Of a stretch of DNA of 64,000 nucleotides, positions 19,014 to 39,519 are shown piece by piece. The stretch is from Pseudomonas viciae (GTDB taxonomy: Bacteria; Pseudomonadota; Gammaproteobacteria; Pseudomonadales; Pseudomonadaceae). The stretch covers positions 62,001-126,000 of the forward strand of contig NZ_CP035088.1 of NCBI RefSeq assembly GCF_004786035.1, written 5' to 3'. Numbering within the stretch: the stretch's first letter is position 1; each line of letters starts with the position of its first letter. The notes under the pieces are model-generated. The model saw nothing but the letters and a program-made list of their open reading frames with translations, made no database searches and was not told where the DNA came from. A program made the position numbers and the translations under genes.

Positions 19014-20387
19014 ATGAAAATCATCATCCTCGGCGCAGGACAAGTCGGCGGTTCGCTGGCAGAGCATCTGGCCAGCGAAGCCAACGACATCACCGTGGTC
19101 GACACCGACGGCGACCGCCTGCGGGACTTGGGCGACCGCCTCGACATCCGTACCGTACAAGGGCGCGGCTCGCTGCCTACGGTGCTGCGCCAGGCCGGTG
19201 CCGACGACGCCGACATGCTGGTAGCCGTGACCAACAGCGATGAAACCAACATGGTCGCCTGCCAGGTCGCCCACACGTTGTTCCACACCCCGACCAAAAT
19301 CGCCCGGGTGCGCGAAGCGTCCTACCTGACCCGCGCCGAACTGTTCGACAACGAAGCGATTCCGGTGGATGTGCTGATCAGCCCCGAGCAGGTGGTGACC
19401 AATTACATCAAGCGCCTGATCCAACACCCGGGCGCTTTGCAGGTGATCGACTTCGCCGAAGGCAAGGCCCAACTGGTGGCGGTCAAGGCTTACTACGGCG
19501 GGCCGCTGGTGGGTCAGCAACTGCGCCAGCTGCGCGAGCACATGCCGAATGTGGAGACCCGGGTCGCGGCGATTTTCCGACGTGACCGGCCGATCCTGCC
19601 CCAGGGCGATACGGTGATCGAAGCGGACGACGAGGTGTTCTTCATCGCCGCCAAAGCGAACATTCGCGCCGTCATGAGCGAAATGCGCCGTCTCGACGAG
19701 AACTACAAGCGCATCGTGATTGCCGGTGGCGGGCAGATCGGCGAGCGCCTGGCCGAAGCCATCGAAAGCCGCTACCAGGTCAAGATCATCGAGATGAACC
19801 CGGCACGCTGCCGCTACCTCTCGGACACCCTCGACAGCACCGTGGTGTTGCAGGGCAGTGCCTCGGACCGCGACCTGTTGATGGAAGAGAACATCGCCGA
19901 CGCCGACATCTTCCTGGCCCTGACCAATGACGACGAAGCCAACATCATGTCGTCGCTATTGGCCAAGCGCCTGGGGGCGAAGAAGGTGATGACCATCATC
20001 AACAACCCGGCCTACGTCGACCTGATCCAGGGCGGTGACATCGACATCGCCATCAGCCCGCAACTGGCGACCATCGGCACCTTGCTTGCCCACGTGCGCC
20101 GCGGCGACATCGTCAGCGTGCACTCCCTGCGCCGTGGCGCGGCCGAAGCGATCGAGGCGATTGCCCACGGCGATGCCAAGTCCAGCAAAGTCATCGGCAA
20201 AGCCATCCGCGACCTCGGCCTGCCGCCAGGCACCACCATCGGCGCGATCATCCGCGACGAAGAAGTGCTGATCGCCCACGACGACACCACCATCCAGACC
20301 GGCGACCATGTGATCCTGTTCCTGGTGGATAAAAAGCACATTCGTGATGTCGAGAAGCTGTTCCATGTGGGGTTGAGCTTCTTCTGA
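19014..20387 (+). CDS. trkA: Trk system potassium uptake protein TrkA
   Basis: 457 residues, the usual length for a peripheral membrane protein with two RCK units. Each half starts with a nucleotide-binding loop: [19 protein letters not shown] at the start and [17 protein letters not shown] near residue 234. It binds NAD and controls the TrkH/TrkG potassium channel, whose gene is not in this window. AGGAG lies about seven bases before the ATG. Confidence 0.97.
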
Positions 20388-20418
20388 TTCAGGCTTTGCG
20401 GTGGCAGTAATGGCCCCA

Positions 20419-20438
20419 TCGCGAGCTTGCTCGCGATA
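20419..20438. repeat. Short REP hairpin after trkA
   Basis: ATCGCGAGCTTGCTCGCGAT is a near-perfect palindrome of the REP core without the flanking GTGGGAGC arms. Confidence 0.65.
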
Positions 20439-20491
20439 GCTATCTAGCAGCCAACTGATCAACCCCTGACACAACCGATAAGGACGCCGCC

Positions 20492-20803
20492 ATGCTCGAC
20501 TCCCTGGAAAAAATGCTCGCCAAGGGTGTGGATAACTCCCTGCTGCGCTTCGGCCTGGGCAAGGGTTACCTGGACCTCGGCGAATTCGCCCGGGCAGCCG
20601 AACACCTTCAGCACTGCGTCGAATTCGACCCCAAATATTCGGCGGCATGGAAACTGCTGGGCAAGGCCCACCAAGGCCACGGCGACCTACCGGCGGCCCG
20701 CCACGCCTGGGAACAAGGCCTCGAAGCCGCCCGAGCCCACGGCGACAAACAAGCCGAAAAAGAAATGACCGTGTTCCTCAAAAAACTGGACCGCCAGCGC
20801 TGA
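20492..20803 (+). CDS. Small tetratricopeptide-repeat protein
   Basis: 103 residues, all helical. Two TPR units are visible: LLRFGLGKGYLDLGEFARAA (about 17-36) and AAWKLLGKAHQGHGDLPAAR (about 51-70). The C-terminus is basic. It is a soluble partner-binding protein of unknown role. Its last 13 codons reappear as a diverged copy at 21991-22029 (see findings). Confidence 0.85.
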   Translation: MLDSLEKMLAKGVDNSLLRFGLGKGYLDLGEFARAAEHLQHCVEFDPKYSAAWKLLGKAHQGHGDLPAARHAWEQGLEAARAHGDKQAEKEMTVFLKKLDRQR

Positions 20804-20828
20804 AAACTTTCAGCCCAGCACAGCCCCC

Positions 20829-20868
20829 GTGGCGAGGGAGCTTGCTCCCGCTTGAGTGCAAAGCACTC
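20829..20868. repeat. Two-hairpin REP element
   Basis: GGGAGCTTGCTCCC hairpin, then GAGTGC-AAA-GCACTC (20854-20868), then six A. Same architecture as 4731-4772. Confidence 0.75.
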
Positions 20869-20927
20869 ATAAAAAAGCCCACCCCCAACCCACTGCCAAT
20901 CCGCTAAAAGCTCAGACGGCGCAAAAA

Positions 20928-21020
20928 CTGTGGGAGCAAAGCTTGCTCGCGATAGCGGTAGACCAGCCAAACCCGTTGTCGACAGCCCTGCCCCAATCGC
21001 GAGCAAGCTTTGCTCCCACA
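20928..21020. repeat. REP inverted pair
   Basis: CTGTGGGAGCAAAGCTTGCT at the left and AGCAAGCTTTGCTCCCACA at the right, with the usual spacer of about 40 bases. Confidence 0.8.
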
Positions 21021-21056
21021 AGTTTGCGGCTTAACTGGCCGGCATTCCCCGCTCAT

Positions 21057-21102
21057 GAAAAGGGGACAGAATTATTGGCTGGAAATAAATCTGCCCTTTT
21101 TC
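21057..21102. repeat. GGGGACAGA-type palindrome, copy a
   Basis: AAAAGGGGACAGAATTATT faces AAATAAATCTGCCCTTTT across a short loop. It belongs to the family at 21712, 21943, 31328, 32127 and 33535, all confined to 21-34 kb. It stands just past the stop of the DUF6201-like gene. Confidence 0.7.
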
Positions 21103-21125
21103 TGAAGCGATTCACTCCGCCCCCG

Positions 21126-21554
21126 CTAGCCCGGCTGATTACCGATGCAATCAGGCAGGTCGGTGCCAATCGTGATCATTTCGACGGAAACTGTGGGGTG
21201 GCTGCCGAAGCCCCAAGACACAGGTCCCCCATAATTCACCAGATCGTAGATCGCGCTTTCGCCAATCAGCTGGCCGTTGCGATTATCGTACAGGCGAAAA
21301 AAGGCCGGAATCTCCCAGCGAACAAACCACTGCTGCTGCTCTGGCTCATCCGGGGGCGACTGGGGGTGAAAGAGGCCGGGCAGTAACCAAAAAGGTTTGA
21401 ATTCCTGAACTCGGTAGCAGCCGTTGGGGCTGATCCTGGCGGCGCCAACGGGCTTCGCCAGAGCCTTTTCCCACCACTGTGAAACGGCCCATAGCCCCGT
21501 GCAGAACACGATTGCAATGAGGGCTAACGTTGGGAGCCGGGTTAGTTTTTTCAT
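21126..21554 (-). CDS. DUF6201-like single-span membrane protein
   Basis: 142 residues if started at the ATG at 21554 (MKKLTRLPTLAL), which opens a typical positive-then-hydrophobic membrane anchor (about residues 5-23). The rest is exported: NGCYRVQEFKPFWLLPGLFH and an IYDLVNYGGP segment recall the DUF6201 family of small Gram-negative envelope proteins. The family assignment is from memory and moderate. It is a solitary gene between GGGGACAGA palindromes and between the two copies of the TPR 3' end, so it looks recently inserted. Confidence 0.6.
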   Translation of the reverse strand: MKKLTRLPTLALIAIVFCTGLWAVSQWWEKALAKPVGAARISPNGCYRVQEFKPFWLLPGLFHPQSPPDEPEQQQWFVRWEIPAFFRLYDNRNGQLIGESAIYDLVNYGGPVSWGFGSHPTVSVEMITIGTDLPDCIGNQPG

Positions 21555-21711
21555 GTTCGCAGACCTATCGGTAACTCGCATATGAAGTTGTTCCCACTCT
21601 TGAGCCCCTGGCACTGGGCTAACGCTCAATGCGCGGTTTGACTGCCGGAATGGCAGTCACCTTACTCAAGGCAGATTTGAGACGTTGCGGGCAAGCTATT
21701 GAGGGACAGAA

Positions 21712-21762
21712 AAGGGGACACCCAATAGCCGGTATCAAGTCAAGGCTAACGGGTGTCCCCTT
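21712..21762. repeat. GGGGACA-type palindrome, copy b
   Basis: AAGGGGACACCC (21712-21723) and its perfect inverse GGGTGTCCCCTT (21751-21762) flank 27 bases. Confidence 0.75.
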
Positions 21763-21812
21763 ATTCCTTGAGACGGGTTGCATCGATAGCAGAGTAGAGG
21801 GTCGTCCAAGCA

Positions 21813-21897
21813 CCTCCCTTCGTCTCGTAAAGTGGCAACCCGACTGAGCCGTGCCTATAGTCTTTGGCGCCATTTTGGCTATCGGAGGCATGGACAT
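21813..21897 (+). repeat. Direct repeat B, left copy (orphan leader)
   Basis: About 85 bases nearly identical to 28507-28590, in the same orientation. It includes the promoter-like TGGCAA-17-TATAGT (21833-21861), the shared TTTGGCGCCA, a GGAGG and the start GGCATGGACAT. Here the frame runs only ten codons before a stop, so the gene that should follow is missing. Confidence 0.85.
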
Positions 21898-21942
21898 TGT
21901 GAAAAGGGGACTGTGTGTGTGAAAAGGGGACTGTGAAAAGGG

Positions 21943-21984
21943 GACAGATTTATTTGCGGCAAATAAATCTGTCCTCTTATACCC
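21943..21984. repeat. GGGGACAGA-type palindrome, copy c, with tandem half-units
   Basis: GGGGACAGATTTATTTG faces CAAATAAATCTGTCCTC. Two further half-units, GTGAAAAGGGGACTGT, precede it in tandem from about 21899. Confidence 0.75.
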
Positions 21985-21990
21985 AAAAAA

Positions 21991-22029
21991 AAATGACCGT
22001 GTTCCTTAAAAAACTGGATTGCCAGCGCT
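21991..22029 (+). repeat. Direct repeat A, right copy (tail of TPR gene)
   Basis: 36 of 39 bases match 20763-20801, the last codons of the TPR gene. Both are followed by a few unrelated bases. It lies 26 bases before the stop of the bpX6-like gene. Confidence 0.85.
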
Positions 22030-22055
22030 CATAAAAATCCCACCCCGGCGGCGCG

Positions 22056-25016
22056 TCACTGCACCGACAAAGTTCGAGTCATAGAGCGGGTTGTGTCGAC
22101 ATGCCACAGGCGGCCCTGATGGTCGAAAAGCACCCATTCATTACCCACGCAACGCAGTTGCGCATGATGCAGCGGCCAGTGCAGGACGGCGCATAACCGG
22201 TCACTGTGGCGGTGGATGAAGTGCCAGCGTGCCTCATCGTCGCCGGTTGCGTAGCAGACCACCAGCCACTGCTCAAACGAGTAGATGTACAACGGATCGG
22301 TAAACTCTTGAATCAGACCGGGCAAGGGATAGCGCTTGCTCGTGCCGCCTTCGTACGCCCTCAGCATGGGATCGCTGTCGGCTTCATGCTCGATCCAGAA
22401 CTCAGTGGTTCGGCCCGTCGCGTTATACACCTGCCAACTGTGTTCCTGACGCCGCGCGGGCATAGAGTCGCGGCTGAGCAATCGGCGGTCGGGCAGGCGG
22501 TAATGCCAGAGCTGGAAATTGTGTGGGGTTTCCAGCAATACGGATTCGTTGCACTCGTCATCCCGAAGGAAGGTAACCTGCCCGGGCAGATCGCCGACGT
22601 GCCAGAGTGTTTCGAACCGGCGATCCACGTCCACGACGCGCAATTGCGAGCCTCGGCCGACGGTCCAGGACGTGCCGTCGAAATTCTTGGCGAAGGCATC
22701 CAGCATCAGCACGCCCAGATCGCTGGCGCTGCGATTGACCAGATCCAGTTTGCAGATGCGCCAGACGTCGCCGCGACGCGCGAGCGCCAGCGCGACCTGT
22801 CGGCTGTGGCCCAGCACGATGGTCTGGGCGGGTACCGGAAAGTGAAAGGCCGTCTTGCCGCTAGCCTCTACCACCAACGCGCCAGCTTCGCCCAGTGCCA
22901 AAAGGTAGCGTCCGTCGGTCAAGGGCACGGCATCGCAGAGAGTCCGGTTGCCCCTTTCTGGCGCCGAGAACGACAAGGGGTCGCTTACCCGCTCAAGGCC
23001 CTGATTAAGAAGTTTGTTCTTGGGAAGGGCGCTGCCGGGCAAGTCCGCTTGTAGCAATTTGTCCTTGCTCATTTTTACCAGCGCTTGAAGCTGGTTCTGG
23101 GTGAGATGGGCGTGTGGCCCGGCCTGATCGCGGATCATCGCCCGCACGGTCGCGGCAGCCAGCCAGGCCAGCGCGGGACTGTGGGCCTTGTGGGCCAGCA
23201 GCGCCTGGGCCAACGTGGCGCGCTCCATAATCCGCTCGGGGTCGTTGCGCAGTTTTTCGACCCAGCTTTCGTATGTCGAGAGGGTGTCGGGTAGCAGGAT
23301 GGCCCGTTTCACCAGTGCGCCGATGGCCAGGCTCCCTCCTGCGGCCTCGGCGGCCAACAGCCATTGTGTGGCGCGTTCGTGCTCTGCCGGCAGACTCCAG
23401 ATCACGTCCACCGCCTGCAACCACAAACCTTTCTCGGTCAGAGCCAGCGCCCATTCCAGGCGCAGACGCGCGGCGGCTTCCGGCCATTTCTTTTCGAGCA
23501 AGAGGACGGCATCGGCGAACGCGTTGTCGCGCCGCGCCACTTGCAACGCTCGCTGCCAATCTCCTGCCAGGCATAGCAGGCGCACGATGGTTGAGCTGGG
23601 CACATCCCAGGCCAGCGCAAGGTCGGCCGCCTGTTGGTGGCGCTGGTGTTTTTCCAGGTAGTCGAGGGCTTCATGTCGTGCCCTCAACAGCTCGGCCAGG
23701 ACAAATACAGCTTCCTCGATACGCCCCTCGCGATCCAGTCGCTCAAAGGACTGCCGGTAGACCTGCTTGAGGTGGGTTCCAAGATCTGCCTCAAACAGCA
23801 TGCTGGTGCGAGGCCCCGATTGCTGGGTGAGCGTCAGATCCTGGCGCCTGTTGGGCGTGCCGAAGGCTTGACCTGCATCGCCCTGGCCGCCGCCCAGCGG
23901 GATGGCGTGGCGCAGTGCTTCTTCCAGGTCGCCATTTTCGAACATTTCCAACATGCGTTGCATGTAAGCGGCCTGCCGCTTTCCGTAAAGCGCTGACAGG
24001 CGTGAATTCTGGGTCAGGCGCGTCAGCCAGCGCCGCCATCTGGCCGGGCCACGTGGCTGGCCCGACGCCCGTGGCGGCACGCTCGGCTTCGATGGTCGGG
24101 CGGCATTGGCGGTAGTGGCAGTGGACGTGTTTCTTGCTGCCGAGAGTGTGCCATTGCGCCGCATCCAGGCACGCACGGCCATCAGTATCAGGGTGAAGAG
24201 TGCCGCGCCGATGACCGTCCAAACCAAGACACTGCCCAGATCGAATGTGGAAGGATCCACAGAGCGTGGCGGCTTGGCGCTCTCAGTCGCAGGGGTAGCG
24301 GTCGGCAACTGCGGACCGTCAAGGGACAGAAATCGGTAAAGGCCAATGCCCACGGCCAGCGCAATTAAACCTAGCAGGCCGTTTTTCAACTCGCCGGTAC
24401 TATGCCGGTTGTTCGCCGGGCCTGGCGTGTGACGCGCCGCAGGTACACCAGGTGTGGCGGCCTGACGCTGGCGCTCCAGCAGGGCTTGCATCACCGCCTC
24501 CCGCTCGGGGCTAACCGGCGCAAGCGAGTCACCCAGGATTTCCCGTATGTCGGTCTGTACCGCCAGCGGATCGGCTAGCGGTTCCGGCAATACGTCCTGG
24601 CAGTCGTAGGTGTCGAGCAGCGCGTACTGGCTGACGTCGATCCATTGATCGGGGGCCAGCGCAGTGGCGTCGCGCAGGTGCAGGGCATTGACCCGGGTGC
24701 CGCGTACCAGCCAGATATCGGCGTGGGCCAGGCGCTGCATTTCTTCAGGACTCAGCCGTGCTGAGCAAAGCGCTCGACCCTGGCGGATCAGCGGCCAGCC
24801 AGCGAGCCCTTCACAAAGCATGGCGCGTGCTTTGGGAAAACGCAGCAGGTCGCCGTCGGCAAAACGATAGGCCCTGGCGTCGGTTTGCCAGTGGGTGAGT
24901 ATCAACCGCGCTCGTTCCTGCTCGCTGAATCGCTCGACGGGAAGCCACAGCGCCTCGATCGGTTGATGACCGCTCAGTGCCGGACGGCGAATAATGACTG
25001 CATCAGGTCCGGACAT
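22056..25016 (-). CDS. bpX6-like protein of a MoxR-vWA-beta-propeller ternary system
   Basis: 986 residues. The N-terminal ~150 residues (ALWLPVERFSEQERARLILT, then DADLLRFP-like DGDLLRFPKARAML) resemble the bpX6 domain described computationally in MoxR-vWA-propeller systems. Two membrane spans follow (about 211-230 and 262-284), then a basic linker, a helical-repeat region (about 420-640) and a WD-like propeller at the C-terminus. The start is the ATG at 25016: GGAGG lies nine bases before it but touches the in-frame ATG at 25025. It overlaps the vWA gene by 14 bases and is last in the operon. It probably anchors the complex in the inner membrane; molecular function unknown. Confidence 0.72.
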   Translation of the reverse strand: MSGPDAVIIRRPALSGHQPIEALWLPVERFSEQERARLILTHWQTDARAYRFADGDLLRFPKARAMLCEGLAGWPLIRQGRALCSARLSPEEMQRLAHADIWLVRGTRVNALHLRDATALAPDQWIDVSQYALLDTYDCQDVLPEPLADPLAVQTDIREILGDSLAPVSPEREAVMQALLERQRQAATPGVPAARHTPGPANNRHSTGELKNGLLGLIALAVGIGLYRFLSLDGPQLPTATPATESAKPPRSVDPSTFDLGSVLVWTVIGAALFTLILMAVRAWMRRNGTLSAARNTSTATTANAARPSKPSVPPRASGQPRGPARWRRWLTRLTQNSRLSALYGKRQAAYMQRMLEMFENGDLEEALRHAIPLGGGQGDAGQAFGTPNRRQDLTLTQQSGPRTSMLFEADLGTHLKQVYRQSFERLDREGRIEEAVFVLAELLRARHEALDYLEKHQRHQQAADLALAWDVPSSTIVRLLCLAGDWQRALQVARRDNAFADAVLLLEKKWPEAAARLRLEWALALTEKGLWLQAVDVIWSLPAEHERATQWLLAAEAAGGSLAIGALVKRAILLPDTLSTYESWVEKLRNDPERIMERATLAQALLAHKAHSPALAWLAAATVRAMIRDQAGPHAHLTQNQLQALVKMSKDKLLQADLPGSALPKNKLLNQGLERVSDPLSFSAPERGNRTLCDAVPLTDGRYLLALGEAGALVVEASGKTAFHFPVPAQTIVLGHSRQVALALARRGDVWRICKLDLVNRSASDLGVLMLDAFAKNFDGTSWTVGRGSQLRVVDVDRRFETLWHVGDLPGQVTFLRDDECNESVLLETPHNFQLWHYRLPDRRLLSRDSMPARRQEHSWQVYNATGRTTEFWIEHEADSDPMLRAYEGGTSKRYPLPGLIQEFTDPLYIYSFEQWLVVCYATGDDEARWHFIHRHSDRLCAVLHWPLHHAQLRCVGNEWVLFDHQGRLWHVDTTRSMTRTLSVQ

Positions 25017-26838
25017 GGGTGTCATCCTCCGACTGCGGTTGTGCCTGATTGCACATGACCTGCAACACCCTGCGCTCGTCCCGGACCGAATACACCACCA
25101 GTTCCCGAGCCTTGGTCAGGGCGCCGATCAGTCCGCTCATCGGACAAAAGCTGATTCTGGCAATGGTCTCGTTGGTGGTGAACAGCACATGTTGCTCACC
25201 CCGGCAGTACAAGGCGACGGTCTGCTGGTTGGGGCCGAGCAAGACCATGGAAAATGCCTCGTCCTCCCCAATCAGCAATCCCAGGCCTTTCCAGCCGGGT
25301 CCCAGGTCGACCTGGCTGGTCCGAAGGTCGGGGGCCACCATCTGCCACTGCTGCTGCCCGTCGACCAGGCGCATCCACGCGCAACCGTAAAAGGTTTTGT
25401 TCCAGTGCGGACTTGCCGGGAACAGTACCTGATCGATGTCGACGTCCTTCGCCGTGCCGACCACATAGCCCGTGGACTGGCTGATCCAGGGATTGATTTG
25501 GTGGACATACAATCGACCGGCATCGTGGCGCAGATAGGCCAGCATGCTGCGATCGACCTGCGCCATGCCCACCACCTTATCGGCGATCGAGTGGGTGACA
25601 CCGGGCTGATGCGGGGTGGGCAGCTTGCCGTTGTCGACCACCCAGAAGGCCAGATGACCCTGGCCGTCGAGCAGGAAAACCCTGCCGTAGGTGCCGTTGT
25701 GCAACCACACCACAGGCAGCAGCGTGGCAGTGCCTGGGGGCAACTGCAGTTGGTCACGCTCGGGGCGGGCGACGGGTTTGAGGCCAGGCATGTTCCAAAA
25801 GACCAGTTGCTCGTCGAGGCTCAGGACCGCGCCGGGCATGCGGCCCGGGAACGTGATCGCCAGCGGCGTGCTGCGGTTGTTCCAGAGAGTCCGGCGAACA
25901 TCGAGCGGTTTTTTCTGCCGGGGAGCCGGAAGCTTGATCACCACAAGCCCAGGCTCGTCGAGCAGTTTCAGGGCGACATGGAAGCCGCTGCTGGCAATGA
26001 TCGGGGCCAGCGTCAGCGCAACCCGTGGAATGAGGGTCTTGACCGCGGTGCGAGCGATCTGTCGCGCGACGTCGAACTCGCCCTTGATCAATTGCAAGGC
26101 AAGGCGCTGGTCGGGGTTGGGCAGGGCAACTTGTCGGGTGGCCCTGTCTTGCAGCGCGACCATCAGGCTGCGGCCATCGAGGCTGTCCTGTATCTGGACC
26201 CGATGAGTGCAGGAGCGGGCGTCGGTGGCAGGCAGTCGTTGGCCGACGATCCAGCGTTCGCCGCTGTCGTAATCCTGTTCCGATAGCCAAGCGCGCCAGG
26301 TGTGCCAGTGCTCATCGCTGACGGTCTGATACGTACGGGCGTCGAGCAGTTGCTTCAAATGCACTGCGCCCTTGAACTCATGTAATTGTGGCGTGTTTTG
26401 CAGGGTCCCCCAGCGCAGCTCGGCCCCGGCTTCGCTGGCCCGGCGGGCGAGCAGGATCAGCAACGCCAGATGCACCAGTCGTGGCCCGCCCAGTTGCAGC
26501 GGGCCGGCGTCGAACAGCACAACGATCATGCGGTTGGCCTGATGAGTGCGATATTGCGGCGCCAGAAACAGGTGTTCGCCAACTGCCGCCCTGCGCAGAA
26601 ATTCGTCGGGTAGCTCATCGGCCAGCAACCACTCGCTGGTCAGCAGTCGTTCATATGGGCCACGGCGTTGCAGATCGCCAAGGCCGTCGGGTTCGGGCTC
26701 GCCGCCCTGCTGCATGCCACGCAATGGACCTAGCAGCGGATTGAGGCGTACGAACAGATCCGCCAGCAATGGCAGCTGTTCGGGGGGAAACCATTGCAGC
26801 CAGTCTCTCCAGGGTTGCAGGGATTGCGGTAATTGCAT
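25003..26838 (-). CDS. Degenerate vWA plus propeller protein of the MoxR system
   Basis: 611 residues. The vWA-like part lies near residues 80-220: strand MIVVLFDAGPLQL occupies the MIDAS position, but the DxSxS metal motif is replaced by DAGPLQ, so metal binding is doubtful. The C-terminal half has repeated four-strand blades (such as LVVWLHNGTYGRVFLLDGQG) expected of a beta-propeller. The ATG overlaps the bpX5 stop (ATGA), so I reject the 57 extra upstream codons. It is the probable target or partner of the MoxR ATPase. Confidence 0.7.
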   Translation of the reverse strand: MQLPQSLQPWRDWLQWFPPEQLPLLADLFVRLNPLLGPLRGMQQGGEPEPDGLGDLQRRGPYERLLTSEWLLADELPDEFLRRAAVGEHLFLAPQYRTHQANRMIVVLFDAGPLQLGGPRLVHLALLILLARRASEAGAELRWGTLQNTPQLHEFKGAVHLKQLLDARTYQTVSDEHWHTWRAWLSEQDYDSGERWIVGQRLPATDARSCTHRVQIQDSLDGRSLMVALQDRATRQVALPNPDQRLALQLIKGEFDVARQIARTAVKTLIPRVALTLAPIIASSGFHVALKLLDEPGLVVIKLPAPRQKKPLDVRRTLWNNRSTPLAITFPGRMPGAVLSLDEQLVFWNMPGLKPVARPERDQLQLPPGTATLLPVVWLHNGTYGRVFLLDGQGHLAFWVVDNGKLPTPHQPGVTHSIADKVVGMAQVDRSMLAYLRHDAGRLYVHQINPWISQSTGYVVGTAKDVDIDQVLFPASPHWNKTFYGCAWMRLVDGQQQWQMVAPDLRTSQVDLGPGWKGLGLLIGEDEAFSMVLLGPNQQTVALYCRGEQHVLFTTNETIARISFCPMSGLIGALTKARELVVYSVRDERRVLQVMCNQAQPQSEDDTHVRT

Positions 26839-27284
26839 CAGCGACCTGCCCACCCATCCTGAATGCGTTGCAGATGCCGGGCCGTGACGGGCAGGCATCG
26901 GTCGAGCGGCACCACTACCCTGGGTGCATGCCACAGTAGTAGTGGCGCGCGCGCGAATCTGCCGAGCAGCGCTTGCCCCATCAGATCCAGCGGTGCGTCG
27001 GGTTCCCAACTGGTGGGCAGCCAGAGACCGGGTGCGGCGGGCTCGGTGCAGGCGTAATCAATGCCCTCGACCCATGGCAGGTCATCGACATTGCCCGTGA
27101 CGATCAGCACGTCACGGTTGGCAGTGGCTTGCAGGTGCGCGATCTGGTCTTCGGGCATGCGCTGCAGCCGTGCATGCAGGCGCGCCGCGACTTCGCCCCA
27201 GGCCACGGCGGCCTGCGGTTGGCCGGGCTCGCGCCGCACTCGCCAGTTCCAATCGATGGCCGTGGCGGTGACCATGTTCGTCAT
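26838..27284 (-). CDS. bpX5-like protein of the MoxR system
   Basis: 148 residues, soluble, no signal peptide. WNWRVRREPGQPQAAVAWGE and LWLPTSWEPDAPLDLM resemble the small bpX5 component that accompanies MoxR-vWA-propeller systems. It overlaps the ATPase gene by four bases at its start and the vWA gene by one base at its end (TGATG-type junctions), which implies tight translational coupling. Role unknown; probably an adaptor between ATPase and vWA protein. Confidence 0.65.
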   Translation of the reverse strand: MTNMVTATAIDWNWRVRREPGQPQAAVAWGEVAARLHARLQRMPEDQIAHLQATANRDVLIVTGNVDDLPWVEGIDYACTEPAAPGLWLPTSWEPDAPLDLMGQALLGRFARAPLLLWHAPRVVVPLDRCLPVTARHLQRIQDGWAGR

Positions 27285-28402
27285 GCCTGGGTTGTCAGCA
27301 GATGGGCCACTTGTCCGCGCGCCTCATGCAGGCGCTGGGGGATGGTCTGGCTGTTGAAGTTGGCATCGATTTCGCGCAGCAGTGCTTCCAGCAGTGGGCT
27401 GGCAGGCGGTTCGCTACGCGCCAGGTAATCCTCTGCCGTTTCAAGCAGACGATGCAGGCGGGCCATTGGTTGCAGCGTCGCTTCCTCGACGGCACTGAAC
27501 AGATGGCTGTTGCTGCATTGGGCAAAAAGATCCTGCAACACCTCGCGGCCGTGTTGTTGAATTTCCCGGGTCGGCAGCACGTAAAGCAGGGGCCAGAGAT
27601 CGGCTTCGCTGGCTTCCAGATGTCCGCGCAGCAAAGCCGCCGCTGCGATCAGGCGCTGAGATTTGACGATACGTCGGTCGGAGAGCTGTATACCGGCTTC
27701 CCGCAACCGGCGGATGGCCTGGGCCAGCGCAGGCCGCATCCGTGACAAATCGACGTCCTTGAGCGCGTGGCCCAGCGTGTCGAGCTGAGTCAGCCCCAGC
27801 AGTTGCGGAACCGGGCGCTGCTCCGACTGCCAGCCGCCGGCCAGCATCGCTTCGAGCTGGTTGTCGGGTACTGCGTCCACGAACAGGTGTAGCAAAAAGC
27901 GGTCGCCGAAGGCCGCCAGCGATTCGTCGTCGGGCAGGCCGTTCGCCGCTGCGACACAGACGCGCAAGGGGCACTGGACCTGGGTGTGACCACGGCGGAA
28001 ACGTCGCTCGTTGAGCACGCCAAGCAGAGTATTGAGGATTGCCGTCGAGCCCAGGAACACTTCATCCAGGAACACAATGTCGGCTTCAGGCAGCATGCCG
28101 CTGATATCGGTCTCAACCGTGCCTTCGCGCAGCTTCTTCAGGTCGACCGTGCCAAACAGTTCCGAAGGCTCGGTGAAGCGCCCTAGCAAATACTCGAAGT
28201 AGCGACCGCCCATGGACTGCGCGACTCGACGCACCACGGCGCTTTTCGCCGTGCCGGGCGGGCCCACCACCAGAATGTGCTCCTGGGCGACCGCCGCCAG
28301 TACGATCAACTCGGCCAACTGCTCGCGACCGACCAGGCCCTCGGTGGCTGCGCGAACGGCGTGACGGATCTGACTGGCGGCGAGATCGAGCGAAGCGGAC
28401 AT
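27281..28402 (-). CDS. MoxR-type AAA+ ATPase
   Basis: 373 residues. Walker A GPPGTAKS at 47-54, Walker B IVFLDEVF at 109-116, sensor 1 within VAAANGLP, and the MoxR feature EYLLGRFTEPSELFG between them. MoxR ATPases act as chaperones that remodel vWA proteins. The ATG at 28402 starts right at the domain; the frame's 55 upstream codons have no family similarity and run into the leader repeat. First gene of the four-gene operon moxR-bpX5-vWA-bpX6 and divergent from the calcium-binding-protein gene. Confidence 0.88.
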   Translation of the reverse strand: MSASLDLAASQIRHAVRAATEGLVGREQLAELIVLAAVAQEHILVVGPPGTAKSAVVRRVAQSMGGRYFEYLLGRFTEPSELFGTVDLKKLREGTVETDISGMLPEADIVFLDEVFLGSTAILNTLLGVLNERRFRRGHTQVQCPLRVCVAAANGLPDDESLAAFGDRFLLHLFVDAVPDNQLEAMLAGGWQSEQRPVPQLLGLTQLDTLGHALKDVDLSRMRPALAQAIRRLREAGIQLSDRRIVKSQRLIAAAALLRGHLEASEADLWPLLYVLPTREIQQHGREVLQDLFAQCSNSHLFSAVEEATLQPMARLHRLLETAEDYLARSEPPASPLLEALLREIDANFNSQTIPQRLHEARGQVAHLLTTQA

Positions 28403-28506
28403 GGGGCATCTTCCTTGAATCTGGAGGGCACATCTTGCCTGAAGGAAAGGGCGAACTGGCCAGTTCATCGGCATGCGATGCGCAAGCTTGAGGCTGTATG
28501 CGTCAG

Positions 28507-28590
28507 TCTTCCCTTCGTTTCGTAAATGGCAACCTGACCGAGCCGTGCCTATAGTTTTTGGCGCCACATCGCTATTGGAGGCATGGACAT
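28507..28590 (+). repeat. Direct repeat B, right copy (leader of the calcium-binding-protein gene)
   Basis: Same sequence as 21813-21897 with about ten differences. In this copy the leader is followed by an intact gene. Confidence 0.85.
28527..28555 (+). promoter_or_regulatory. Candidate sigma-S/sigma-70 promoter
   Basis: TGGCAA, 17 bases, then CTATAGT. The weak -35 and C before the -10 hexamer fit a sigma-S-like promoter. Both boxes and their spacing are conserved in the left copy at 21833-21861, which supports them. Confidence 0.5.
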
Positions 28591-30577
28591 GAGCCAGAGC
28601 ATTTCGCCCGCCGCTTCAGCTGCGCGGAACACAGGCATGGTCGCCACGACCTTATGGGGCTCGGACAAAATCGCAGGTATCACGGTCGATCCAGACGGTG
28701 CGATCTGGCTTGGCGCTTATAGTCGCCTGGGGCTAGGAGGCGAAGAGGATTCAGGCTTCACCGGCAGCCTGGTCCGGTTCAATGCCAACGGTAGCCTGGA
28801 CCGCGACTTCAGCGGCGACGGTAAATCCCTGCTCCCTGTGTCGCTCGATATCGAGGACGGCGGTAATGCCGCCGTGCAGCCGGGCGGGGGCTACCTGGTG
28901 GCGCGCTACGTGAAAGTAGGCGACGCCTGGGTGTCGGGCGTCAGTCGTAATTTGGCGGACGGCAGCCTCGATACGAGTTTCGGGAACGGCGGCACCGTGA
29001 CAGTGCCTTTCTATTGGAATGAAGATCTAGGCCAGCAAGCGTCGTTCTCCGTGCAACGCGACGGCAGCTTCTTCGCAAGCGCTGGGTATCCCTCTGGAGA
29101 GATCTACATCGCCCGCTTCGACGCGACGGGGGCCTTGGTTTCGTCTTTCGCAGAGGCCGGGGTCCTGCACCTGCCAGCATCTGTCGGCATTCATCCCGGC
29201 GGCACGATCGACGTTTCGCTGCAAGGAGACGGGAAGGTATTGATCACGGGGCAAGATACCCTGACCCGCCTCAACCCGGACGGTACGCTGGATAGCAGCT
29301 TTGCGAACGGGGGCAGCCTGGCCTTGGATGTCCATGCAGACGCCCTCGTCATCCAGAACGACGGCAAAATCCTGCTGGCGGGCGCCACGGGCGGCGTGGC
29401 GACCGTCATCCGACTCAATGCCGACGGCTCACTCGACAGCGATTTCGGTGATCAGGGGCGGGTAAGTTGGGGCTCGGAAAGCGCTCCTTTCGCAGTCGCC
29501 GACATGATCGTGCTGGCCGACGGCAGACTATTGATTGGTGGAAGCCAAGGTACGAGCGCGGACGGCTACCTGGCCGCCTTGGTCCAGTTGAACCCCGACG
29601 GCAGCCTGGACCACAGCTTTGGCAATCCCGACGACGGCTATTACCACCTCGACGGTGGCCGCGACGATGACTTCTTGCTCGGGACCGCCTCGTTCGACGA
29701 TGCGATCTTTGGCGGGGCCGGTAACGATCTGCTCGATGGCCAGCAAGGTCGCGACTTGCTGACGGGCGGTGTCGGCGCCGATACGTTCCGTTACCAGTCA
29801 GTCACCGACAGTTACCGAACCGCAACCGCGGCCCATAGCGACCGAATCACTGACTTCGACCCCGGCACCGATACGATCGACCTCGCCTCCCTGGGCTTCC
29901 TCGGGCTGGGCAATGGACATGACGGAACGCTGGCGATACGCGTCAATGAAAGCGGGACGCGGACCTACCTCAAGAGTTTCGATACCAACGCGGACGGGGA
30001 ACGTTTCGAAGTGGTCTTCGACGGTAACTTGGGCCAAGCGCTGAATGAAACCAACATTCTGTTTCAGCAAGCCAGGTTGGTGGGCACAGAAGGGGACGAT
30101 CGTTTACAAGGCAACGCTCGAGGCGAAATCATCGAAGGGGGCGCGGGCGATGATCGCCTTTATGGCGCGCTAGGGAATGATGTGTTGGTTGGCGGAGAGG
30201 GCCGGGACCTATTGGTGGGTGGTGGTAACAACGATGTGTTCCGCTTCGACGGACTGAGCGACAGCTACCGTACCGCCACCGAAAACCACACTGATCGCCT
30301 GATGGACTATACCGCGGGTGAAGACACGATCGACTTGTCTGCCTTGGGCTTTACCCGGCTGGGGGATGGTTATGGCGGCACGTTGGATGTGGTGGTCAAT
30401 GAAGCCAAGAACCTGACTTACTTGAAGAGCTACGAAGTCGATGCGTCCGGGGCTCGATTTGAGTTGAGCTTGGTGGGGGACCACTCCGGTTACCGTGATT
30501 TGAACATCATCTTTGCCGAGCCCTCGGAAGGGGAGGCCATTCAATTAGTTGGAGTGGCTAATGACGTCTGGGTGTAA
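28589..30577 (+). CDS. Secreted-type calcium-binding protein: delta-60 repeats plus RTX
   Basis: 662 residues. The first half holds at least five delta-60 repeats with the core LDxxFGxxG (DGSLDTSFGNGG, DGTLDSSFANGG, DGSLDSDFGDQG, DGSLDHSFGN), probably a propeller. The second half has two RTX blocks, GGAGNDLLDGQQGRD near 374 and GGAGDDRLYGALGNDVLVGG near 517, each followed by a serralysin-C-like segment with DTIDLASLGF or DTIDLSALGF. No Sec signal: a type I secretion substrate in layout, but no transporter is nearby. GGAGG is seven bases before the ATG at 28589 and too near the ATG at 28583. Function unknown; possibly an adhesin or surface protein. Confidence 0.85.
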   Translation: MSQSISPAASAARNTGMVATTLWGSDKIAGITVDPDGAIWLGAYSRLGLGGEEDSGFTGSLVRFNANGSLDRDFSGDGKSLLPVSLDIEDGGNAAVQPGGGYLVARYVKVGDAWVSGVSRNLADGSLDTSFGNGGTVTVPFYWNEDLGQQASFSVQRDGSFFASAGYPSGEIYIARFDATGALVSSFAEAGVLHLPASVGIHPGGTIDVSLQGDGKVLITGQDTLTRLNPDGTLDSSFANGGSLALDVHADALVIQNDGKILLAGATGGVATVIRLNADGSLDSDFGDQGRVSWGSESAPFAVADMIVLADGRLLIGGSQGTSADGYLAALVQLNPDGSLDHSFGNPDDGYYHLDGGRDDDFLLGTASFDDAIFGGAGNDLLDGQQGRDLLTGGVGADTFRYQSVTDSYRTATAAHSDRITDFDPGTDTIDLASLGFLGLGNGHDGTLAIRVNESGTRTYLKSFDTNADGERFEVVFDGNLGQALNETNILFQQARLVGTEGDDRLQGNARGEIIEGGAGDDRLYGALGNDVLVGGEGRDLLVGGGNNDVFRFDGLSDSYRTATENHTDRLMDYTAGEDTIDLSALGFTRLGDGYGGTLDVVVNEAKNLTYLKSYEVDASGARFELSLVGDHSGYRDLNIIFAEPSEGEAIQLVGVANDVWV

Positions 30578-32126: not shown

Positions 32127-32172
32127 AAGGGGGAGAATTATTTTGCTGGAAATAAATCTGTCCCCTTTTTTG
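32127..32172. repeat. GGGGACAGA-type palindrome, copy e
   Basis: AAAAGGGGGAGAATTATTTTG faces AAATAAATCTGTCCCCTTTT. It lies directly after the DUF2459 stop and before the AT-rich gene; it could also end transcription. Confidence 0.75.
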
Positions 32173-32982: not shown

Positions 32983-33006
32983 CAGAGAAATAAATCCGTC
33001 CCCTTA
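32983..33006. repeat. GGGGACAGA-type half element, copy f
   Basis: Only one arm, AGAAATAAATCCGTCCCCTTA, is present, just past the AT-rich gene. Confidence 0.55.
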
Positions 33007-33746: not shown

Positions 33747-34382
33747 TTATTTACGCTTGAGCATCTCCGGCAACTGCGCCACCAGTTTCTGGTTGTTCAA
33801 TGGCGCACGAATAAACCCACGTTGGGTGCCGTCCGGGCCGATGACGGCCAGGTTACCGCTGTGATCAACCGTGTAGTTGGGCTTGCTGGTATCCGCCGGA
33901 ATGAACGGAATGCTCACCGCATTCGCCAGTTTCTGCAGGTCTTCAACCGACGAGGCGGTCAGCCCTTTGAACTGCGGGTCGAAGTAGCCCAGGTACTGCT
34001 TGAGTTGCTTGGGCGTGTCGCGGTTGGGGTCGACGCTCACCAGTACGATCTGCAACTTATCCACAGCCTCGGGCGGCAGTTCGCTTTTGATCTGGCGCAG
34101 TTGGGCGAGGGTGGTCGGGCAGATGTCCGGGCAGAAGGTGTAGCCGAAGAACAGCAGGCTCCATTTGCCTTTCAACCCGTCCATCGCCACGGGCTGGCCG
34201 TCCTGGTCGGTCATTTTCACGTCCGGCAGGTTGCGGCTCTGGGGCAGCAGGATGATGCCGGCATCGATCAGCGCAGTCGGGTCGCCCTGGCCTCTGCCGG
34301 ACAGTACTTTGTTGATGGTCAGGCCGAGGATCACAGCGATCACGGCCGCGAGGATGAAGACGGTTTTCTGGGTTCGAGTCAT
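33747..34382 (-). CDS. SCO family copper chaperone of cytochrome oxidase
   Basis: 211 residues: an N-terminal membrane anchor (about 8-26) and a periplasmic thioredoxin fold. The copper ligands are complete: Cys84 and Cys88 in FCPDICP and His174 in VDHSG. It helps assemble the CuA centre of subunit II. The ATG at 34382 overlaps the cyoE stop by four bases; the frame's long upstream extension is the shadow of cyoE. Last gene of the cox run. Confidence 0.95.
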
Positions 34383-35278
34383 AGGCTCAACAGTAAGTAA
34401 TGATCTACAAGCAGGGCGATGAACAGCAGGAACAAGTACCAGATAGAGTACTTGAAGGTGTTGATCGCCGCGTGCGGCCGACTGCCACGGTACAACACCA
34501 CGGCCCATTGCAGGAACCTGGCGCCCAATACGAGAGCGCAGACAAGATAGAGCATCCCGCTCATCTGGATCACGAACGGCATCAGGCTCACCGCCAGCAG
34601 CACCAGGGTGTACAACAGGATATGGATCTTGGTGTAGTGCTCGCCGTGGGTCACCGGCAACATCGGGATGTCCGCCTTGGCGTATTCCTCCTTGCGGTGA
34701 ATCGCCAGGGCCCAGAAATGCGGCGGGGTCCAGGCGAAGATGATCAGCACCAGCAACAGCGGTTCGGCGCTGACATGACCGGTGGCGGCCACCCAACCCA
34801 ACAGCGGTGGCGCCGCACCGGCGAGGCCGCCGATGACGATGTTCTGCGGCGTCGCCCGTTTGAGGAAACCGGTGTAGACCACCGCATAGCCCAGCAACGA
34901 GGCCAGGGTCAGCCAGGCGGTCAGCGGGTTGGTGAACGCCAGCAGCATGGCCTGGCCGGCCACTGCCAGCGCCAGGGCGAAGGTCAGTGCGGCGGCCGGT
35001 GAGATGCGTCCCTCGGCCAAGGGTCGTTTGTGGGTACGGGCCATCACCGCATCGATGCGCCGGTCCACCACATGGTTGACTGCCGCCGCGCCACCGGCAC
35101 ACAGGGCGATCCCCAGGTTGCCGAACACCAGGACCGTCCACGGCACCCCGGCGCGGGTGGCGAGGAACATGCCGACCAGCGAGGTGATCAGCATCAGCAC
35201 CACCACTTTGGGCTTGGTCAGCTCCAGATAGTCGCGCCAGATCGCCTGGTTGTGGCGTTCACCGGTCAGGGTTGCCAT
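34379..35278 (-). CDS. cyoE: Protoheme IX farnesyltransferase
   Basis: 299 residues, nine membrane spans. It adds a farnesyl group to heme b to give heme O. UbiA-type Asp motifs are present: [20 protein letters not shown] (near 66-85) and the later [20 protein letters not shown]. It overlaps ctaA by 13 bases and the sco gene by four. Also named ctaB; with ctaA next door it serves the aa3 oxidase. Confidence 0.97.
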
Positions 35279-36345
35279 GGCATCTCTCCTTTTATTGTTA
35301 TGGGACTGGCGCTGTGTTTATGCGGGTAGAAGCGCCAGCGCAGCGGGACGTGATGCTTGACCCGGACCAGGCTGGTACGGGCGTGATAATTGACCAGCAC
35401 CAGGGTCAACAGCAGCGCGGCGCCCCCGGCGTTATGAGCGACCGCCACCGGCAACGGCAGATGGAACAGCACGTTGCTGATGCCCAGGGTGATCTGCGCC
35501 GCCAGGGCGATCAACACCAGCCCGGCCAGGCGGGTCATGCCAACCGCCTTGAGTTGCCAGGCCAGCCCCAGTAGCACCAGCGTCACCAGCAATGCGCCAA
35601 TGCGATGGGTCAGGTGGATGGCTGTGCGCGCATCGCTGTCGAGCTGGCCGCCCAGGTAGTTGGGGCCGATGTGCTGGGTCAGGTGAAAGCCATTGGCGAA
35701 ATCGGCTGGTGGCAGCCATTGGCCGTGGCAGGTGGGGAAATCAATGCAGGCCACCGCCGCGTAATTGGAGCTGACCCAGCCGCCCAGGGCGATCTGGCCG
35801 ATCACCAGCAGCAGCCCGGCCGTCGCCCAATGTTGCAGGCGCTTGGGCACAGTCAGCGCCGGCAGTACGCCGGACAATCTCAAGGTCAGCAGAAACAGCA
35901 GGCTCAACGTCGCGAACCCGCCCAGCAAATGCCCGGTGACCACTTGCGGCCAGAGTTTCAGGGTCACGGTCCACATGCCGAACGCCGCTTGCGCAAAGAC
36001 CACGGCCAGTAGAAACAGCGGCAGCTTCAAGGGTAGACCGGGGTGACGACGGTTCATCCAGGCCCGGGCGGCCAGCACGGTAATCATTAGCCCCAGGGCG
36101 CCCGCGAAGTAGCGATGGACCATTTCGTTCCAGCCCTTGTGGGCTTCCACCGGGGCGTCGGGATAATGCAACTCGGCATGGGCCAGTTGGGCTTCGCTCT
36201 TGGGCACGCTGATAAAACCGTAGCAACCGGGCCAGTCCGGGCAACCGAGGCCCGCATGGGTCAGCCGGGTGTAGGCGCCCAGCAGGACGACGATCAGTGC
36301 CAGCAACGTGGCAAACAGCGCGAGGCGAAATCCAGGTTTGGCCAT
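35266..36345 (-). CDS. ctaA: Heme A synthase (COX15/CtaA)
   Basis: 359 residues, eight membrane spans in two four-helix halves. It oxidises the heme O methyl group to give heme A. Conserved His and Cys positions appear in [19 protein letters not shown] near residue 26, [19 protein letters not shown], and the second-half [10 protein letters not shown]. It ends inside cyoE (13-base overlap), so the two are coupled. Confidence 0.95.
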
Positions 36346-36355
36346 GTCGATGCCC

Positions 36356-36940
36356 TCATCCGATGTTCGACAGTTTCAGCAGGTGGCGCAGGTCGTTGAG
36401 CAAGTCCTTGCCCTTGACCCGGGCGTCGTAGCGCAGCACCAGGTTGCTGTGGGGATCGATAATCCACAGTTGCGCGCCGCCAGAGCCCTGGGCGCCTTTC
36501 TGATAGGCCGGCAGGTCCAGTGGATAGCGTTGCAGTTGCGGGTATTCGCGCTGCAGTTGCGCGTCATAGTCCGCATCCAGCGGTTGTGCGATGGCCAGGG
36601 CGTGGCTGGCGCGACCGGCTTCGCGGCCCAGGCCGATCTGCACCTGGCGGGCCAGGTACACCAGTTGCCGGCAATCCACCGAGCATTCCTGCGGTGCGGT
36701 GACCAGGATCTGCCAGCGCTGTTCATCGGCCTGTACGCCAATTTCGGCGCGGGTCTGGCCGTTGCCGATCAGTTCGCCGTGGTAGCTGCGGCTTTCCGGC
36801 ACCCAGAACTGGAATTTGTACATGCCGGTGGCGAGAATCATCGGGCCGATCACCCCGAGCACGATCAGCAGCAATTGCACGCGGCCCTTGCGACGGTTGG
36901 GCGCCTCAGACGTGTTGGTTGGATTCATGGTGCTTCCCAT
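36356..36940 (-). CDS. Membrane-anchored Sco-like protein of the cox cluster
   Basis: 194 residues from the ATG at 36940, preceded by GGGAGA; the ATG at 36928 is the alternative. One membrane span (about 22-42), then a periplasmic domain. It carries CSVDC (Cys86, Cys90), a CxxxC in the place of the Sco copper motif, and later IDPHSNLVLRY with His164, comparable with VDHSG of Sco. It is usually left as a hypothetical protein next to ctaA. I infer a thioredoxin-fold metallochaperone or thiol reductase for CuA. Confidence 0.7.
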   Translation of the reverse strand: MGSTMNPTNTSEAPNRRKGRVQLLLIVLGVIGPMILATGMYKFQFWVPESRSYHGELIGNGQTRAEIGVQADEQRWQILVTAPQECSVDCRQLVYLARQVQIGLGREAGRASHALAIAQPLDADYDAQLQREYPQLQRYPLDLPAYQKGAQGSGGAQLWIIDPHSNLVLRYDARVKGKDLLNDLRHLLKLSNIG

Positions 36941-37643
36941 GGTGTCTCCCTGCGTTGTGCCATCCGAGATAAAGGAACAGGCCAAACAGCGCCGCCGCCA
37001 TGGCGAACCACTGCACGGCATAACCGAGGTGTTTTTCCGGCCCCATGGCCACCACGGGCCAATCGGTCCGGTAGGCGCCGGGGCCGTTTTGTTGGCGTAA
37101 CTCGTAAGTGAAACCGTTGCGGCCCAGTTCGGCCCAGAGTTTGCCCGGCTCGATGGCGGTGACCAGTCGCGGCCACGGTGCATCGGCCGGATCGGCGTGC
37201 AATTGGAACGTGGCGCCCGGTGCAACGTAGACCCAGGCTTGGAGGCTCACAGGTGCTTCAGGTGTGTTGAAGACTGGCGGGGTGCGGCGGTCGGGCCAGG
37301 GTATCCAGCCGCGATTGACCAGCAGCCACAACCCGGTTGCCTGGTCGAGAAACGGTTGCAGCAATTCGACGCCGACCTTGCCGTCGTGCTGGCGGTTGTC
37401 CAAAAGGATGCTGTGCTCGGTGTCGAACTGGCCGTGCAGGCTGACCGGTCGAAAAGCCGGATCCGGCGTTTGTTGCAACTGCGTGCTGTCCAGCGGCGGC
37501 GCCACGCGGCGCTCGGCGTAACTGTCCATGAGCACACGCTTTTGTTCGCCCCGGCTCAATTGCCAGAACCCCAGGCACACCATGACCGGCACCAGAACAG
37601 CGACCACCAGAGACGGCACGACGCCCGGCCGGAAGTGTTTCAT
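36906..37643 (-). CDS. SURF1 family cytochrome oxidase assembly protein
   Basis: 245 residues with the SURF1 layout: a membrane span at each end (about 8-24 and 212-230) and a large periplasmic loop. Motifs LGFWQLSRGEQKR, HSILLDNRQHDGKVGVELLQPF, LVNRGWIPWPDRR and the C-terminal HLGYAVQWFAMA are typical. It aids heme a insertion into subunit I. The frame extends to 37856, but the ATG at 37643 starts at the first span. Its 3' end overlaps the Sco-like gene. Confidence 0.93.
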   Translation of the reverse strand: MKHFRPGVVPSLVVAVLVPVMVCLGFWQLSRGEQKRVLMDSYAERRVAPPLDSTQLQQTPDPAFRPVSLHGQFDTEHSILLDNRQHDGKVGVELLQPFLDQATGLWLLVNRGWIPWPDRRTPPVFNTPEAPVSLQAWVYVAPGATFQLHADPADAPWPRLVTAIEPGKLWAELGRNGFTYELRQQNGPGAYRTDWPVVAMGPEKHLGYAVQWFAMAAALFGLFLYLGWHNAGRHHGKHHESNQHV

Positions 37644-37713
37644 GGCACCGTCCGAAAGCCGTCGAACGGGATAGCTATACTCACGTGCATTGCATCCCCC
37701 CGGAGTGTCCCTA

Positions 37714-37917
37714 ATGCTAAAAGCAGCCATCGTCCTGATGCTGATTGCCACGATTGCCAGCCTGTTCAGCGGTCTGTTTTTTCTGGTCAAGGACGACAGC
37801 AGTTCCAATCGCCTGGTCATCGCCCTGGCGATTCGGGTCAGCCTGGCTGCCGCCACCGTCGGCTTGATTGCCTGGGGTTTTTTCAGCGGCCAGTTGGTCT
37901 CCCACGCGCCCTGGTAA
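37714..37917 (+). CDS. DUF2909 twin transmembrane protein
   Basis: 67 residues on the opposite strand to the cox genes. Two membrane spans (MLKAAIVLMLIATIASLFSG and the later VSLAAATVGLIAWGFF) joined by a short charged loop. Small twin-span proteins of the DUF2909 type sit in this position between coxC and SURF1 in Pseudomonas. The ATG at 37714 is chosen over the one at 37690 because the first span begins there. Probably a small oxidase-associated protein; unproven. Confidence 0.8.
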   Translation: MLKAAIVLMLIATIASLFSGLFFLVKDDSSSNRLVIALAIRVSLAAATVGLIAWGFFSGQLVSHAPW

Positions 37918-37925
37918 CGTTGGTT

Positions 37926-38813: not shown

Positions 38814-38837
38814 TTATTGTTCTCCTTATCGGGCACG

Positions 38838-39389: not shown

Positions 39390-39413
39390 GGTTCTGAACC
39401 CCTACACATAACC

Positions 39414-39502
39414 CTGTGGGAGCGGGCTTGCTCGCGAAGCAGGCGCTGCGGTCTAACAGAAACACCGCGTCATCGTTCTTCGCGAGCAAGCCCGCTCCCA
39501 CA
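39414..39502. repeat. REP inverted pair inside the cox operon
   Basis: CTGTGGGAGCGGGCTTGCTC at the left and GAGCAAGCCCGCTCCCACA at the right, in the gap between coxA and ctaG. Repeats in this place can stabilise the upstream mRNA. Confidence 0.85.
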
Positions 39503-39519
39503 TGGGCTCCATGTGTCAT

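Follow-up and report, generated by a model that had tools for sequence, protein, structure and literature searches.

We identified an intact four-gene operon, under selection and of an already described kind, in a 64,000-nt stretch of Pseudomonas viciae DNA (hereafter the window; positions 62001-126000 of contig NZ_CP035088.1 in a 6.7 Mb genome). The operon encodes a MoxR ATPase, a bpX5 protein, a vWA-like propeller protein, and a bpX6 protein, and it is a MoxR-vWA ternary system of the β-propeller type, a family known since 2020. New here are the invariant quartet, a degenerate MIDAS-like site, an optional membrane anchor, and duplicated flanks at a variable site. Its most likely role, in our view, is in conflict with an invader and not in housekeeping, with chances that we judge to be about even; we favor this role because the operon is rare, patchy, and self-contained and lies in a zone where relatives carry anti-phage systems.

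An intact and conserved four-gene operon

The genes are arranged as follows (positions are those of the window):

22056–28402, minus strand throughout: operon of four genes, in the order MoxR, bpX5, vWA-like propeller, bpX6
28402–27281, minus strand: MoxR (bpMoxR AAA+ ATPase, RavA-like), 373 aa (Pfam PF20030)
27284–26838, minus strand: bpX5 protein, 148 aa (Pfam PF19921; 63-sequence alignment)
26838–25003, minus strand: vWA-like propeller protein, 611 aa (predicted structure)
25025–22056, minus strand, start possibly 25016: bpX6 protein, 989 aa (Pfam bpX6 model; predicted structure)

MoxR and bpX5 overlap by 4 nt (ATGA), bpX5 and the vWA-like gene by 1 nt (TGATG), and the vWA-like gene and bpX6 by 23 nt. 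The bpX6 start codon is ambiguous between two ATGs (25025 or 25016), and with the second as the start the last overlap is 14 nt. These overlaps agree with the complete, translationally coupled set described in the original prediction, which was made from the sequence alone. The Pfam models bpMoxR, bpX5, and bpX6, named for one system, match three of the operon proteins at 299, 175, and 216 bits (cut-off 27 in each case, curated for bpMoxR), the same families that had been assigned earlier. The PF20030 cut-off is also passed in 12/14 control genomes, and two further loci of the P. viciae genome exceed it as well (62.8 and 45.6 bits, compared to ~300 for the operon MoxR); bpMoxR membership rests on the high score, and a pass of the cut-off alone is not diagnostic.

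The bpX6 model matched 29 of 398 Pseudomonas genomes sampled, including P. viciae, where the gene is single-copy, and 3/398 genomes sampled across the phylum, two of them Pseudomonas; it matched none of the 14 control genomes. All four genes are present in the same order in 28/28 other Pseudomonas loci, with the exact 4-nt MoxR-bpX5 overlap retained in 27. The ratio of nonsynonymous to synonymous substitution rates (dN/dS) lies between 0 and 0.60 in 11 pairs, wherever differences exist, and is always below 1. Because the overlap is kept and dN/dS stays below 1, the arrangement is not a product of chance.

A one-genome-per-species scan with an alignment of the third (vWA-like) protein yielded 78 loci, from Pseudomonas, Chromobacterium, Lysobacter, Tahibacter, Myxococcota, Armatimonadota, Obscuribacter, Streptomyces, Kitasatospora, and others. 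The complete ordered quartet is found in 71 of the 78; the other seven are interrupted by contig ends, and there are zero violations of the order. Components were counted by stop-to-stop frames, and weak bpX5 relatives among the distant loci were identified through iterated profiles. The third protein, being the search query, is present in all 78 by selection, and many of the 28 Pseudomonas loci recur among them. The original prediction had named a lack of bpX5 and bpX6 matches and of conserved co-occurrence as evidence against itself; we searched for both and found both. Across these sequences, bpX5 is an invariant fourth gene, and the bpX5/bpX6 subtype is a quartet rather than a ternary system.

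In Pseudomonas sp. KNUC1026 (L036 / L090), the vWA-like and bpX6 genes appear interrupted. The G+C content of the P. viciae operon is 63.4%, compared to 64.4% for rsmB-trkA. No RNA families were found within 20300-29000. Terminator-like sites around the operon occur at chance level (6 vs 5.5 expected), and promoter-like sites are slightly above it (4 vs 1.7, standard deviation 1.4), with one in each copy of the repeat from upstream of the RTX gene described below.

Predicted architecture of the four proteins

The predicted domain layout of the two long proteins is as follows:

vWA-like protein: N-terminal helical region, α/β (divergent vWA-like) domain, and C-terminal propeller of ~seven blades (predicted structure)
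bpX6 protein: bpX6 domain at residues 12-181, two-segment membrane hairpin, α-solenoid at 329-661, and propeller at 684-987 (predicted structure and hydropathy)

Both Walker motifs of MoxR, reported as intact from the sequence, are indeed so: Walker A reads GPPGTAKS, a GXXXTAKS variant, and Walker B reads VFLDEV. The P-loop GxxGTAKS is kept in 67/69 MoxR homologues. The closest solved structure is E. coli RavA (3nbx, E 1.4e-42, residues 6-270), and against the curated full-length RavA model the operon MoxR scores 170 bits, under the cut-off of 681. This kinship favors the main rival explanation, namely that the operon encodes an accessory chaperone for assembly or maturation, akin to RavA-ViaA, NorQ-NorD, or CoxD-CoxE (the last as described in Kaur 2020); it would remodel a dedicated host complex with bpX6 as tether or client and confer a niche advantage with no immunity. 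RavA-ViaA act at the inner membrane (PMC9489729), and this is where the P. viciae bpX6 would sit. We regard the chaperone explanation as plausible but less likely than conflict; the rare, patchy distribution described above speaks against it.

The bpX5 protein carries a conserved motif, LPWxxGxxY, in the alignment of 63 sequences. Profile comparison gave no significant relation between bpX5 and bpX6, nor between the vWA-like and bpX6 propeller proteins.

The third protein had been labelled a vWA-propeller protein. A predicted propeller closes each of the two long proteins, as expected from the repeated blades noted before, with 26 strands and ~seven blades in the model of the vWA-like protein and 28 strands and about seven blades in that of bpX6. 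The vWA half has no Pfam vWA match in 71/71 proteins (the operon protein and 70 aligned homologues), and an alpha/beta fold is seen in the model. Structure searches with this model were filled by propeller matches, and the N-terminus gave no significant hhalign match to other vWA proteins, several of the comparison open reading frames (ORFs) being poor. The putative vWA identity of gene 3 comes from fold topology, position, and literature rather than from a sequence-model match.

In the alignment, the metal site of canonical vWA domains (MIDAS) is degenerate in the vWA-like protein, which argues against a chaperone of the RavA-ViaA kind. Mean pairwise identity among the 71 proteins is 53% over residues 1-90, 37% over 91-262, and 22% over the propeller. 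Such a difference between N-terminus and propeller would be expected of a fixed MoxR interface combined with a variable recognition surface.

The two membrane spans predicted earlier in bpX6 were recovered by plain hydropathy, used here in place of a dedicated predictor, as hydrophobic segments at about residues 217-235 and 266-284. Across 51 homologues, the linker between the bpX6 domain and the solenoid has two such segments in 26, one in 6, and none in 19. The anchorless set comprises one Pseudomonas protein (L089, 23-residue linker) along with 18 more whose linkers span 43-102 residues, from Lysobacter, Tahibacter, other Lysobacteraceae, Myxococcota, Obscuribacter, Chloracidobacterium, Latescibacterota, and further metagenome-assembled genomes. 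Several actinobacterial bpX6 proteins, additional to the 51, carry one or two segments. These linkers show that the membrane anchor is optional across the family.

This bears on another proposal of the original prediction, that the operon is an envelope-stress machine at the inner membrane. The position of the two segments between the modelled bpX6 and solenoid domains fits such a machine. The 19/51 homologues that lack a linker segment weaken it, as they do the chaperone explanation, and in the 18 anchorless loci no extracted bpX5 or vWA-like protein gains a segment (mean hydropathy >=1.8, i.e., at least 1.8; the check ran without the MoxR of L116 and L118 and the bpX5 of L118). Some MoxR proteins of these loci have a hydrophobic segment near residue 25, which we assign to the ATPase fold. 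We have demoted envelope stress as a core role and consider it improbable.

Mean pairwise identity among the 51 bpX6 proteins is 37% for the bpX6 domain, 23% for the linker (from fewer pairs), 48% for the solenoid, and 33% for the propeller. Given these regional identities together with dN/dS, the bpX6 domain is not hypervariable within the family.

A variable chromosomal site with duplicated flanks

The operon lies between a TPR gene and an RTX gene, and parts of both are duplicated beside it:

20492–20803, plus strand: left flank, TPR gene next to trkA (Pfam TPR)
21830–21897, plus strand: copy of the RTX start region (upstream and start), 68 bp; repeats D4 and D14, original at 28524-28590
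21982–22034, plus strand: copy of the TPR-gene 3′ end, 53 nt, 87%; direct repeat D1, original at 20754-20806; adjoins the bpX6 stop codon
22035–28505, no strand assigned: putative cassette, the operon and ~100 bp upstream (repeat and similarity edges)
28583–30577, plus strand: right flank, DUF5122 propeller and RTX repeat protein (Pfam)

From left to right, the interval holds the end of the TPR gene, an unknown gene, the copied RTX start, the copied TPR end, the operon, and the RTX gene. The RTX start-region repeat consists of 43 nt at 91% and 20 nt at 95%, and a genome search placed the 68-bp element at just two places in the 6.7 Mb, both in this interval. The left cassette edge falls directly after the TPR-end copy. 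The right edge is fairly sharp: similarity to the bpX-bearing relative G173 stops at 28505, that to P. putida 700447 stops at 28495, and similarity to the RTX flank of the operon-free relative G039 starts at 28511. In the simplest reading, two alleles of one interval may stand side by side because an incoming cassette recombined through its flanks.

The TPR gene is matched in 227/249 Pseudomonas genomes. The RTX-flank protein has some match in 143/149, with 88-91% over the full length in only four others. We compared the stretches after the TPR gene in 20 further genomes, the best matches among the 227. Nine of them (L199-L207) share a conserved block after the gene, made up of what we take to be lpxL-like, glyQ/glyS, gmhB, and plsC. 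This block is not seen in the other eleven (L188-L198), whose content is variable, several having a common two-component and hydrolase block.

PADLOC was run on hand-picked proteins, defense-like or unfamiliar in look, from 6 genomes (G039 and five of the eleven), and the hits therefore give no rate; L188, L191, L192, L194, L195, and L198 fall outside the scan, and the L192 stretch ends at 5.7 kb. In the TPR-RTX interval of G039, Septu PtuB and PtuA (226 and 490 bits) adjoin the TPR gene, with other genes besides. Hachiman directly follows the TPR gene in G153 (429 and 1066 bits). G124 has HerA-DUF4297 and a ThsA-like protein (892, 397, and 66 bits) 7-11 kb from it, HerA-DUF4297 itself at 8-11 kb, and G239 has PDC-M60A (292 bits) at 9-13 kb. 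An NsnA-like protein and ATPase occur in G210 (115 and 73 bits), and a PtuA-like ATPase and PDC-M42C protein in G125 (127 and 141 bits). In G173, the bpX operon itself lies 7.7 kb from the TPR gene. The zone after the TPR gene is variable and carries defense-type genes in relatives, with no frequency claimed; the accessory location proposed earlier is supported.

Several other features surround the operon. The left one of the two interval alleles contains a 167-aa ORF (21126-21629) that has no Pfam or PADLOC match. A partly palindromic AAGGGGACAGATTTATTT repeat has copies at 21060-21077, 21938-21978, 32150-32167, and 32988-33005, bracketing the operon and RTX gene; 5/15 genome matches (up to 2 mismatches) fall in these 12 kb. 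REP-like inverted repeats (GCTTGCTCGCGAT type) follow trkA and the TPR gene, at 20424-21025. Genes for cytochrome oxidase (SCO1, CtaA, SURF1, COX1; 33747-41181) lie between the variable zone and a type VI secretion system (T6SS) cluster at 43518-64000, which includes genes for a class 3 lipase-domain protein, VgrG-type, ImpA-type, VipA, and TssF proteins, a Clp-type AAA ATPase, and a sigma-54 regulator.

The operon could conceivably be a partner of this T6SS cluster, for example in immunity or self-protection. The lipase-domain gene is 15 kb off and T6SS genes begin ~19 kb off in the window, and in relative G205 the ORFs that directly follow the TPR gene read, from the ORFs alone, as the same T6SS block. 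Against this, G205 has no bpX6 match, and no T6SS family is among the 25 of 154 families listed for neighbors of the operon elsewhere. We consider such a partnership highly improbable.

A possible role in conflict

Returning to conflict as the preferred role, in the scheme we infer as most likely (hexamer, docking, direction of signalling, and role alike) a MoxR hexamer would act as an ATP-driven remodeller, with the divergent vWA-like protein as its adaptor, docking through the strongly conserved N-terminus. The fast-changing propeller of the adaptor would read a target, and bpX5 would be obligatory as a fourth subunit of the core. As a client or output arm, the bpX6 protein would couple to the complex through its bpX6 domain and conserved α-solenoid and bind a target or partner with its propeller; in the P. 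viciae lineage, the two-helix hairpin would tether it to the inner membrane.

This reading is supported by the match of family models and P-loop to the published description, the invariant quartet and order, the stronger conservation of the vWA-like N-terminus relative to its propeller, the patchy distribution, the anti-phage systems that relatives carry at the TPR site, and the listing of the four genes in one plasticity region of P. syringae clade 2b-a (see below). More specifically, we tentatively propose, as a plausible idea that falls short of probable, that the quartet is an unrecognized four-subunit system against phages (or plasmids). In it, a MoxR motor would act via a vWA adaptor that has lost the metal site, two propellers would serve as recognition surfaces, there would be no separate toxin or nuclease, the anchor would be gained or lost between lineages, and, in this Pseudomonas group, the cassette would be exchanged with Septu-, Hachiman-, and HerA-type systems in one chromosomal zone.

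A number of observations weigh against a role in conflict. The 28 other Pseudomonas loci fall into just 12 contexts, several common to related species, and the synonymous divergence (dS) of the operon from its nearest relative, G173, is 0.28-0.45, comparable to the 0.36-0.53 of three core genes (rsmB, trkA, and the TPR gene). Because of these few shared contexts and similar dS values, the operon is inherited vertically at least in part, and the module is often a stable chromosomal resident. Pairwise dN/dS gave no sign of arms-race diversification (0.06-0.41 for the bpX6 domain). No bpX5 match was found in plasmid and phage collections, and one scan of viral contigs found no relative of the vWA-like protein. 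PADLOC-DB 2.0.0 holds no specific model for the operon, giving weak AAA matches for MoxR (best 18.9 bits) and none for the other three proteins, and Pfam and PADLOC searches of the four found no effector or catalytic domain besides MoxR.

The surroundings of the operon point the same way. Flank sharing divides the loci compared into 53 contexts, and 142 neighbor ORFs were taken from 50 of them, including the context of G173, whose copy lies at the TPR site. By coordinate, two ORFs came from one side of the operon and a single ORF from the other, with a crude ORF caller and contexts chosen to differ. PADLOC at E 1e-20 matched 15 families among the 142, each in one or two ORFs. The Pfam families of neighbors (25 of 154 listed) belong to ordinary regulators, transporters, and enzymes; TerD occurs in two ORFs. 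A general link to defense islands was not found among these neighbors, which were scanned without a control set. The operon's standing as a defense candidate, put forward in the original prediction, is thus mixed and not established: Septu and Hachiman occur at the same TPR gene in relatives, and neighbors in the 50 contexts are mostly ordinary.

Among the four proteins, MoxR alone has PHROGs matches, mostly to ATPase-type families (best 162 bits), and a MoxR search returned two plasmid records, both at <60% identity. Recent foreign origin is not shown by base composition or by dS relative to core genes.

Purifying selection throughout, inheritance within subclades, and mostly ordinary neighbors also fit the chaperone explanation. 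Against it, no substrate gene recurs: no Pfam family is found in >3/142 neighbor ORFs, a count that the choice of differing contexts lowers. A LysR-type ORF cluster lies near 19/86 loci.

With a compact, complete copy, definable cassette edges, and a tractable genus, the conflict proposal of 2020 becomes directly testable in P. viciae. The hypothesis is also sharpened, in that bpX5 would belong to the core, the membrane would not be essential to the mechanism, and the propellers and linker would be the variable parts.

Comparison with known systems

The original prediction called the operon undescribed, which does not hold. Its type was published in 2020, and the same four genes are listed for Pseudomonas syringae clade 2b-a: Table 2 of PMC9677677 places in one plasticity region (RGP_32) ravA, a gene with a bpX5 domain, one labelled 6ND4, and a bpX6 gene. 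In the part of that source available to us, they are listed as clade-unique genes, and neither mechanism nor comparison is given. No functional test of MoxR-vWA propeller systems was found in the open-licence literature searched.

RavA-ViaA of E. coli shares with the operon an AAA+ protein, its nearest solved MoxR relative, and a vWA-type partner. It differs in that the match ends at residue 270, the operon partner matches no vWA model, and the operon adds two subunits and two propellers. The VMAP, iSTAND, and FtsH MoxR-vWA systems share the MoxR-vWA core, and their third components are not among the operon Pfam matches. Septu, Hachiman, and HerA-DUF4297, which close relatives carry next to the same TPR gene or at most 12 kb from it, are unrelated in protein and offer an analogy of location only. 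The core defense hotspots of P. aeruginosa have other flanking genes, with trkA not mentioned in the available part of PMC10250203.

The closest counterpart is subsystem 4 of Kaur 2020 (PMC7159879), where MoxR-vWA-beta-propeller ternary systems were described computationally and a role in biological conflict was proposed, as the original prediction had noted. Both have a bpMoxR with a GXXXTAKS loop (the P-loop 'often' found there), a divergent vWA-type protein with a C-terminal propeller, and no classical effector, and Pseudomonas is among the reported hosts. The third component described there (globular N-terminus, membrane segment, helical repeats, propeller) agrees with the model and hydropathy of bpX6. 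The operon family differs in several respects. The system of Kaur 2020 is ternary with extra linked genes in a subset, whereas bpX5 is invariant here. About four blades were described for the vWA component, compared to ~seven in our models. Finally, the membrane segment is optional here, and the bpX6 domain is not hypervariable within the family, whereas the N-terminal region was described as variable across the whole group.

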